From Halopenitus persicus (lineage in GTDB: Archaea > Halobacteriota > Halobacteria > Halobacteriales > Haloferacaceae), in the NCBI RefSeq assembly GCF_002355635.1, contig NZ_AP017558.1:2666001-2730000 (forward strand): DNA of 64,000 bases. Reading direction: 5' to 3'. The position numbers and the translations under genes were made by a program. Below the pieces are notes generated by a model that had not been told where the DNA came from, ran no database searches, and was given only the letters and a program-made list of their open reading frames with translations. This document shows positions 51,435 through 54,373 of the stretch, piece after piece. How positions within the stretch are numbered: the stretch's first letter is position 1; every line of letters begins with the position of its first letter.

Positions 51435-51830
51435 TCAGGCGTTGGCCGCGTGATTCCGTCTTGATGTCGCCGTGAGCGGGAGGTCAGCATCGATCTCGTC
51501 GTACCATACCACCGGCCGTTTGGCGTTGCCGTCGTCCTCGAGCTCGATGAGGCCGTAGTCGGCAAGTTCGTGTACGTTTTCGAGGACGTCGGGGGGATTC
51601 CGGTCAACGAGACGCGCGAGTTCGCGAATGCTCTCCGGCTCGTGTGCAACGATCGTCTCCAGGAGCTCGAGATTGGTCGACCGGAAGACGCGGCCGAACG
51701 TCTCGAGGTCCTCGATCGAAAGCGTCGGTTCGCCGGGTTCGACGTCCTCGCCGGCGTCGATCGCTGCGAGACGGTCCTCGAGGTCGCTACGGTCTGCGGG
51801 CGCGATACGAACGTGAAGCGTTCGGGTCAT
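51435..51830 (-). CDS. HVO_A0114-family winged-helix DNA-binding protein (probable antitoxin)
   Basis: 131 residues. The winged helix comprises FGRVFRSTNLELLETIVAHEPESIRELARLVDRNPPDVLENVHELADYGLIELEDDGNAKRPVVWYDEI in a typical archaeal MarR-like layout. The N-terminus TRTLHVRIAPADRSDLEDRL is family-typical. These proteins often sit directly downstream of TumE-type toxins, exactly as here (69 nt after the broken toxin frame), and are taken as antitoxin/autoregulator. The disordered C-terminus has an RRNH basic patch. Confidence 0.82.
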   Translation of the reverse strand: MTRTLHVRIAPADRSDLEDRLAAIDAGEDVEPGEPTLSIEDLETFGRVFRSTNLELLETIVAHEPESIRELARLVDRNPPDVLENVHELADYGLIELEDDGNAKRPVVWYDEIDADLPLTATSRRNHAANA

Positions 51831-51899
51831 GATTGGATTGGTATCGGTAAGTAGTCTGCTACCGAAACGGTATGCGTGGCGGTTGCCGCATCGGTTCGG

Positions 51900-52195
51900 T
51901 CACCAGTCGGCACGTTTCTCCGGCGGAAGCGCTGCCCGCCAGGCACGGAAGATGTTCGCGAGTCCGGGGTAGTCGATCTCGAACGTCTCGGATCCCAGGT
52001 GGAGTTCGTGTACGCCGTGGTGATTGTCGAATCTGATGATCGGATCATCCGCACCGGCGTTCCCGTAGTGGTAGGCATACTTGATCCCTTCCCGAAATCG
52101 TTCCGACGGTGGAACCGAGAGCACGCGTACTCGGGCAACGGTCCGTCGGCGTAGGCTTCGATCTCGTCTTCGAGTACGGTAACATCATTGCTCAT
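51900..52195 (-). pseudogene. TumE-family toxin (DUF6516-like), frameshifted
   Basis: Two frames together make a TumE-like protein. From the ATG at 52195 the frame reads MSNDVTVLEDEIEAYADGPLPEYA, then drifts into unrelated sequence. In the next frame, from 52124, VLSVPPSERFREGIKYAYHYG continues into DNHHGVHELHLGSETFEIDYPGLANIFRAW. Adding one G at about 52124 (GCG-TGC to GCG-GTGC) restores a 98-residue chain. Either the toxin is inactivated, or only a 74-residue product from the GTG at 52124 is made. Upstream of the antitoxin-like gene in the same direction. A sequencing error is possible. Confidence 0.72.
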
Positions 52196-52256
52196 CCACA
52201 CGTATATTGACGGATCCCATCCCGATAAGTGTTAGGCTGAATCCTAACGGTAGAGT

Positions 52257-53348
52257 TCACCGCCGCAGCGTCCGATATCGTGCCCGCTCGCGCCGGCGCT
52301 CGAGCAACCGCGTGATCCCCTTCCCGGGCCCGCCCTCGATCGGCCACCCCTGGGTGCGCCAGGCGGGTGGCTCCGGGGACACCGAGGGACACGAGCTCGA
52401 ACACTCGCGGGCGGTCGGACAGCGACCCTTCGCGGCGCAGTGGGGACGCATCGCCTCGCCCGCGTGAGCCAGCTGAAAGTGGCGACAGTCGGGTCGCATC
52501 GTGTCGTGGAACGAGCGCCAGCCTCTGCCGTAGACGCGCTCGGCAAGGACGAGCCGGCGGGTTTCGCGGTCCGGATCGGTCGCGGCGGCGTTCGATCCGG
52601 CGTCGCCGTCACTCCCGTCGCCGTCCTCATCGCCGCCACCGCCATCGCCGCCACCGGCGTCACCGCCGGTATCGCCGTTTCCCACGGTTCGGAGGTCGCT
52701 CGGGAGCCACGCGACCGTCCCCGACTCGGGATCCACGCCCGTCCCGAAGTCGGTGAGCACGATGCCGGCCTCGATCGGGATCTCGCGTCTGAGTGCCGGC
52801 TCGAGCCGCGACCCCGTCGCCTCCGTCGCGAGCCAGGTCTCGTCGAGAAGCCCGGCGTCGACGTCGTACTCGAGCTGGTCGGCGAGCGCCGCGGCGGCGC
52901 TCGCGTCGAGGTCCGGCTTGTTCTCGATCGCGACGATCCGGCGGACCCAGTCGGGGTACGGTCGCGTGCGTCGGATCTCGATCCGGCCGCCCGCGTCCCC
53001 GCTCGTGCGCTCGTCGATCAGGCCGCGGTCGGCCGCCCGATGGACCGCCTCGCGAACGTATCGCCAGGGATAGTCCGGCTCGGGAAGCGCATCACGATAC
53101 CACTCCCAGTCGGGCGGCGCCTCGCGGACGATCCCGAGCAGCTCGCGGTCGATCTCCCGGTCGCCGAGGGCCCGGCGCCGGCGAAACCCGTCGGGGTCCA
53201 CCTCGACGACGACGGTGTCCCACCGGCGCCGTCGGGTGCCGACCTGGCGGCCGACGATCGCGGGCGTCGGGTCGCCGTCCGGGCGCCAGGTCAACTCGGC
53301 CCACCGGCAGACGAGCAGCTCGTAGCCGAACTCGGCGTCTGGAACCAC
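52257..53348 (-). CDS. DUF5787-like protein: nuclease-like core with Cys/His cluster
   Basis: 363 residues from a GTG at 53348 (VVPDAEFGYELLVCRWAEL); the frame is open further upstream, but that part would overlap the methylase promoter. The N-terminal half resembles PD-(D/E)XK nucleases: DTVVVEVDPDGF early on, then VRRIVAIENKPDLDASAAAALADQLEYDVDAGLLDETWLAT, with E-x-K in IENKPD. A 30-residue Gly/Asp insert follows. The C-terminal region has Cys and His residues spaced as in a metal or Fe-S site (PDCRHFQLAH, RPHCAAKGRCPTARECSSSC). The family is haloarchaeal and uncharacterised. Divergent from a DNA adenine methylase. Confidence 0.7.
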   Translation of the reverse strand: MVPDAEFGYELLVCRWAELTWRPDGDPTPAIVGRQVGTRRRRWDTVVVEVDPDGFRRRRALGDREIDRELLGIVREAPPDWEWYRDALPEPDYPWRYVREAVHRAADRGLIDERTSGDAGGRIEIRRTRPYPDWVRRIVAIENKPDLDASAAAALADQLEYDVDAGLLDETWLATEATGSRLEPALRREIPIEAGIVLTDFGTGVDPESGTVAWLPSDLRTVGNGDTGGDAGGGDGGGGDEDGDGSDGDAGSNAAATDPDRETRRLVLAERVYGRGWRSFHDTMRPDCRHFQLAHAGEAMRPHCAAKGRCPTARECSSSCPSVSPEPPAWRTQGWPIEGGPGKGITRLLERRRERARYRTLRR

Positions 53349-53408
53349 GCTTCGGCGTGGGTCGCGCTCGTACAAAACGGTACGGCCGCGGGACGGCTCG
53401 ACGAGGCG

Positions 53409-53415
53409 TTTATAA
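53409..53415 (+). promoter_or_regulatory. TATA box of the adenine methylase gene
   Basis: TTTATAA, 32-38 nt before the ATG at 53447. Its presence argues against extending the divergent DUF5787-like gene upstream to 53444. Confidence 0.55.
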
Positions 53416-53446
53416 CCCCGGCGCGAGGAGTACCGCGCGAACACGA

Positions 53447-54373
53447 ATGGCGAAGCCCGTGTTGAAGTGGGCCGGCGGGAAACGGCAACTTCTCGAGGCG
53501 ATCTACCGGCGGTTCCCGACCGACTATGACCGATATCACGAGCCCTTCTTCGGCGGCGGCGCGGTCTTCTTCGACCTCGAGCCCGCGAACGCGACGATCA
53601 ACGACACGAACCCGCGGCTCGTCAACTTCTACGAGCAGGTCCGGGACGCGCCGGAGGCGCTGATCGACCGCCTCGAGTCGTTCGACGATCCGGAGGCCGA
53701 CCCCGACCCCGACCTGGCGTTCGCCGAGGAGACGCTGCGGGGAGCCACGGTCGATGCCTACTACTACCAGCAGCGCGCTCGGTTCAACAGGCGCCCCTAC
53801 GGAGAGTCGTTCGACGCGCTCGAGGAGGCCGCGCTGTTGGCCTATCTCAACCGGACCTGCTACAACGGGCTCTACCGCGAGAACGCCGACGGTGGATTCA
53901 ACGTTCCGATCGGCCGATACGCCGATCCGGACTGGGTGCAGGCCGACCGGATCCGGGAGGCCAGCCGCGTGCTGCAGGGGGCGACGATCCACAACCGCGA
54001 CTTCGAGTACGTCCGGGAGGTCGCGACGCCGGACGACCTGGTCTACGTCGATCCGCCCTACGAGCCGATGAGTCCGACCGCGAACTTCACCGACTACAGC
54101 GCGGACGGATTCGATCGCGAGGACCAGGAACGGCTTATCGATCTCGTGACGGACCTGGACGACGCCGGCGTTTCCGTCGTCGTCTCCAACAGCGGCGTGA
54201 CCGCCGACCGCTACCTCGAGGCAGGACTCGACGTCGATCTCGAGGGCGCCACGCGGGCGATCAACAGCGACGCGAGCAACCGCGATGAGGTCGACGAGAT
54301 CATTGCGACGACCGTGCCTGACGAGCGGCGACGCGGGACGGCCCAGACCGGACTGGGCGAGTTCTCGGAGTGA
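53447..54373 (+). CDS. dam: D12-class (Dam-like) DNA N6-adenine methyltransferase
   Basis: 308 residues. Hallmarks of the D12/Dam family in order: KPVLKWAGGKRQLLEAI at the N-terminus (SAM motif X), YHEPFFGGGAVFFDLEP (motif I), YLNRTCYNGLYRENADGGFNVPIG, the catalytic DPPY in DLVYVDPPYEPMSPTANF, and VVSNSG. Most members methylate GATC; the target here is not proven. The protein ends QTGLGEFSE, which fits a PCNA-interacting box (Q-x-x-L-x-x-F) like the DinB tail in this window. The stop codon starts an 8-bp triple repeat. Confidence 0.9.
   Translation: MAKPVLKWAGGKRQLLEAIYRRFPTDYDRYHEPFFGGGAVFFDLEPANATINDTNPRLVNFYEQVRDAPEALIDRLESFDDPEADPDPDLAFAEETLRGATVDAYYYQQRARFNRRPYGESFDALEEAALLAYLNRTCYNGLYRENADGGFNVPIGRYADPDWVQADRIREASRVLQGATIHNRDFEYVREVATPDDLVYVDPPYEPMSPTANFTDYSADGFDREDQERLIDLVTDLDDAGVSVVVSNSGVTADRYLEAGLDVDLEGATRAINSDASNRDEVDEIIATTVPDERRRGTAQTGLGEFSE

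Follow-up and report, generated by a model that had tools for sequence, protein, structure and literature searches.

A core haloarchaeal DUF5787 protein with a predicted PD-(D/E)XK-like fold, encoded next to a Dam-family methylase in Halopenitus

The locus described here lies within a 64,000-nucleotide stretch of haloarchaeal DNA (the whole stretch analysed, hereafter the window) and carries two divergent genes, one for a DUF5787 protein and one for an adenine methylase. The genome is Halopenitus-like, with Hpt. persicus and Hpt. malekzadehii as its nearest relatives. Its arrangement raises two questions: whether the DUF5787 protein is a nuclease, and whether it works together with the methylase. 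The original prediction leaned towards yes on both: it saw in the protein a motif resembling that of PD-(D/E)XK nucleases together with a C-terminal Cys/His cluster recalling Cas4/AddB-type Fe-S nucleases, and in the pair a possible restriction-modification or methylation-directed repair system.

The two genes and their surroundings

Both genes are real at this locus (Table 1), and the predicted layout of a DUF5787-like protein divergent from a D12 methylase was borne out by family matches (PF19100 for the former, PF02086 and TIGR00571 for the latter) and by gene starts situated 98 bp apart. The longest open reading frame over DUF5787 extends from 52257 to 53444 (- strand), and since most orthologues begin at the position of the GTG at 53348, this codon is the likely start. 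The encoded protein is a full-length member of PF19100 (E=1.6e-102) and has a glycine- and aspartate-rich loop. Searches against Pfam and PDB sequences (with the single protein as well as with a profile) recovered no nuclease match, the PDB-sequence results being noise only, while PADLOC gave no defence-system or nuclease match and PHROGs nothing similar; the literature search, in the library covered, found no paper in which DUF5787 is named.

Table 1. Features of the locus, in window positions (residue numbers are those of the window's DUF5787 protein).
Feature	Position	Strand	Description	Basis
DUF5787 paralogue A	52257..53348	-	363 aa, GTG start	PF19100, orthologue alignment, L016 model
C288 to C320 codons	52389..52487	-	C-x15-C-x11-C-x3-C cluster; four Cys invariant in both paralogues	
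E142-N143-K144 codons	52917..52925	-	predicted E-x-K motif; both paralogues except one K-to-N	
D44 codon	53217..53219	-	predicted catalytic Asp, second core strand start; conserved in both paralogues	
Divergent intergenic region	53349..53446	.	98 bp, between DUF5787 and methylase starts	direct sequence reading
Dam-family D12 N6-adenine methyltransferase	53447..54373	+	308 aa; orphan type by family match	PF02086, TIGR00571, PADLOC, cHG W

The methylase matched PF02086 (E=1.1e-58), scored 250.5 bits against TIGR00571 (above the curated cut-off of 114.85 bits), and was recognised by the PADLOC models MTase_II and oMTase. A mechanically listed start at 52793 was rejected as a spurious upstream extension of its reading frame. 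Judged by family match, it is an orphan GATC-type enzyme; Dam-like methylases of this kind (orphan, GATC-type) occur in ~95% of Halorubrum and patchily elsewhere in the Halobacteria (PMC6471742). GATC reaches 1.13x its expectation in the window, a sequence count that is no proof of methylation, and a second Dam-like match was present elsewhere in the genome (G000:C1:715654-716259, 59% identity over residues 103-299). A TTTATAA on the + strand, roughly 30-40 bp ahead of the methylase ATG, could be the TATA box of this gene.

An HTH gene of the HVO_A0114 family (PF25212) is located next to DUF5787 (window 51827-52201 (-), and 51435-51830 (-) with the next ORF). The adjoining ORF resembles a TumE-type toxin and continues in another frame, so that the toxin gene looks broken.

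Distribution of DUF5787 and its gene neighbours

DUF5787 was found in 290 of the 292 sampled Halobacteria, nearly always at two places per genome, and was absent from all 50 sampled Halobacteriota outside this class; the IMG/VR viral contigs yielded no relative. The window carries paralogue A, and paralogue B of the same genome is encoded at G000:C1:1030082-1031050 (mean A-B identity 36%); the search with B again recovered 290 of 292 Halobacteria. This is the distribution of a core gene and not of a mobile restriction system. Two small-genome Halobacteria (G020 and G217; 1.9 and 2.1 Mb) lack both paralogues. An MBL-fold hydrolase is encoded near paralogue B in 16 of 19 neighbourhoods and gives no clear functional pointer.

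Within the 69 genomes of the family, DUF5787-A was present in all and a close Dam relative in 16, and the two were neighbours only in three Halopenitus. In the 13 non-Halopenitus genomes with both genes, these are on separate contigs or hundreds of kilobases from each other. Among the loci with flanking sequence, Dam was seen only at the window's own and at two other Halopenitus loci, and near DUF5787-A at none of 53 others (the flanks covered up to 6 kb at 23 of these loci, ~1.4 kb at the other 30). No restriction nuclease was identified among the neighbours examined. At the Hpt. persicus locus L001 the two genes are 1.1 kb apart, and between them (L001:4886-6000) are ORFs whose translations read as an AbrB-like antitoxin and a PIN-domain-like toxin (VapBC-like).

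A NUDIX gene is the conserved companion of DUF5787-A, lying close upstream at 45 of 55 loci (on the same strand and mostly within 250 bp at 20 of the 25 long-flank loci, and within the flanking sequence at 25 of the 30 further ones). In the window genome the NUDIX gene is located 325 kb from DUF5787-A, so that the usual pairing of the two has been broken up in this lineage. Other recurring neighbours were a ribosomal S10-like gene and DUF5797.

Predicted fold, active site and cysteine cluster

Across 86 A and B sequences, 52 positions were conserved (kept in at least 97% of them), including E6, E10, C14 and E18 (placed on one helix face by their spacing of four), D44, E142, N143, K144, Q158, D162 and the four C-terminal cysteines. 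The window protein reads V-A-I-E142-N-K144-P-D-L, a stretch in which E142, K144, P145, D146 and L147 were invariant in a 24-sequence alignment. In the window genome's paralogue B the motif is E-N-N, as against E-N-K in the 29 other B copies examined; hence, the predicted active site of this copy may have been lost, which would leave at least one copy inactive. A general loss of K144 in the paralogue B of Halopenitus was considered and rejected, as only the window genome's copy (for which L027 and L058 are the same) is affected.

The fold was predicted with AlphaFold (model m5bba302bc868) from a shallow alignment with the Halogranum orthologue L016 as query. This was the one good model in five (pLDDT 74.9, or about 75, the rest being at 57 to 45), with a pTM of 0.69 and most core blocks scoring 80 to 95, and a model seeded with the window protein (pLDDT 49) gave no useful structural match. 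In the L016 model a helix (6-21) is followed by three strands (31-39, 44-52, 134-142), a helix (148-164) and a strand (169-175), that is, by the alpha-beta-beta-beta-alpha-beta order of the PD-(D/E)XK core, and an insert (54-126) consists of helices and a two-strand wing. The Asp (D46, corresponding to window D44) is placed at the start of the second core strand and the E-x-K (E141-x-K143, window E142-x-K144) at the end of the third, as this fold requires.

Structure searches returned no match at E<=0.001, either in the PDB or in the viral library. The best PDB match was the restriction enzyme PaqCI (E=0.042, prob 0.85), followed by SfsA (second by E-value, yet of low probability), and ArsR-type winged helices were numerous, in agreement with the inserted domain of the model. 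From the viral library came weak matches to an MmcB-family protein (E=0.0076), several UL24, exonuclease 8 and a protein with a RecB-family name. We take PaqCI, SfsA, MmcB, UL24, exonuclease 8 and RecB to be PD-(D/E)XK families, and it is the recurrence of several such families that favours the fold, none being significant alone. The predicted topology, the positions of the motif residues and their retention by both paralogues lead us to assign DUF5787 a PD-(D/E)XK-like fold and motif with moderate confidence. What had been anticipated from the E-x-K motif is supported in these respects (the core order in one model), the fold search giving weak matches (all at E>0.001).

The C-terminal cluster, foreseen as a mixture of Cys and His, turned out to be all Cys: C288, C304, C316 and C320 are invariant in both paralogues, but no His of the cluster is conserved in both (alignments of A and B). 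A fifth invariant Cys (C14) is situated in the first helix. The four-Cys cluster probably binds a metal, which on the sequence may be zinc or Fe-S.

Interpretation and comparison with known systems

We favour, with a probability of about 0.6, the reading that DUF5787-A represents an undescribed PD-(D/E)XK-like family engaged in core haloarchaeal DNA maintenance, and that its linkage to the methylase arose by chance. Here we build on conservation, universality, synteny, the lack of association with Dam and the predicted topology. As regards catalysis, DNA as the substrate, the identity of the metal and the cellular role, we reason as follows. DUF5787-A would be one of two ancient paralogues retained by nearly all Halobacteria, most likely with a PD-(D/E)XK nuclease-type fold in which a winged-helix DNA-binding domain is set between strands two (D44) and three (E142-x-K144). 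The winged helix would place the protein on DNA, D44 and E142 would hold Mg2+, and K144 would aid phosphodiester hydrolysis, while the four-Cys metal site would stabilise the shape of the C-terminal part. The protein would probably serve in housekeeping DNA or nucleotide maintenance, beside the NUDIX hydrolase, and an orphan GATC-type Dam gene would have become its neighbour in the Halopenitus lineage.

A restriction-modification or methylation-directed repair pair made up of DUF5787 and Dam seems, as an alternative, highly improbable. Although the genes are divergent and close in the window and adjoin in two other Halopenitus, the universal spread of DUF5787 contrasts with the patchy one of Dam, the two are kept apart in 13 of 13 non-Halopenitus genomes carrying both, other ORFs (1.1 kb) intervene in Hpt. 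persicus, and DUF5787 is devoid of any defence-system match (PADLOC). Distribution and synteny thus lead us to reject the pair, the linkage being limited to Halopenitus: DUF5787 is a core haloarchaeal gene that has no methylase association outside one genus, an outcome that the original prediction had itself named as speaking against it.

Two further alternatives concern the protein itself. It is unlikely, in our judgement, that the fold and its winged helix make up a DNA-binding or structural protein whose motif serves metal or DNA binding and not cleavage: the many structure matches yielded by the winged-helix insert, conservation that reaches well past the motif and the K lost in the window genome's paralogue B would all agree with it, but E142 and K144 are present in all A and in all sampled B except that one copy. 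Less probable still is a mistaken PD-(D/E)XK assignment, with DUF5787 being some other metal-binding enzyme or an RNA-binding protein; weak structure matches throughout, the shallow alignment and the single good model in five would allow for it, whereas the return of several different PD-(D/E)XK families among the best matches and the position of D44 and E-x-K where that fold requires them argue the other way.

The nuclease idea survives as a predicted fold and active site, in which we have moderate confidence. The wider proposal, of DUF5787 as a haloarchaea-wide PD-(D/E)XK nuclease family (with inserted winged helix, 4-Cys metal site and two ancient paralogues) that carries out core repair or nucleic-acid processing special to Halobacteria, is put forward tentatively, at somewhat less than even odds. 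Were the nuclease reading true, two genes that occur in almost every haloarchaeon and are absent from sampled relatives would gain an enzymatic function, and a DNA maintenance step specific to haloarchaea would be indicated. The methylase linkage, being without functional meaning, is removed as a false lead.

Compared with known systems, the window protein shows no difference from the PF19100 family (to which no function is assigned), and the window methylase none from the orphan Dam methylases of Halobacteria (cHG W; PMC6471742), with which it has in common the family, the patchy spread and the lack of a known cognate nuclease. DUF5787 shares with Cas4 and AddB the E-x-K, invariant near-C-terminal Cys and a single first-helix Cys. 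The proposed Fe-S likeness to these proteins was not sustained, as its Cys spacing (C-x15-C-x11-C-x3-C) differs from that of haloarchaeal Cas4 (C-x2-C-x5-C) and a profile comparison with the latter (hhalign) gave a probability of 0.2% over 6 columns, i.e. no homology. DUF7140 (PF23601), a small Cys domain of haloarchaeal membrane proteins, weakly matches C288 to C304 (in 15 of 24 DUF5787 orthologues, best E=0.003) and has a similar run (C-x15-C-x(11-12)-C), whereas DUF5787 lacks the first Cys of its C-x2-C pair and bears an extra terminal C-x3-C. From the PD-(D/E)XK superfamily, DUF5787 is set apart by the want of a sequence-level match, by structure matches below significance and by a D44-E142 gap of 97 residues that holds the winged-helix-like insert; shared with the superfamily are the predicted core order, the placement of D and E-x-K, and Q158 and D162 in the helix that follows the motif.
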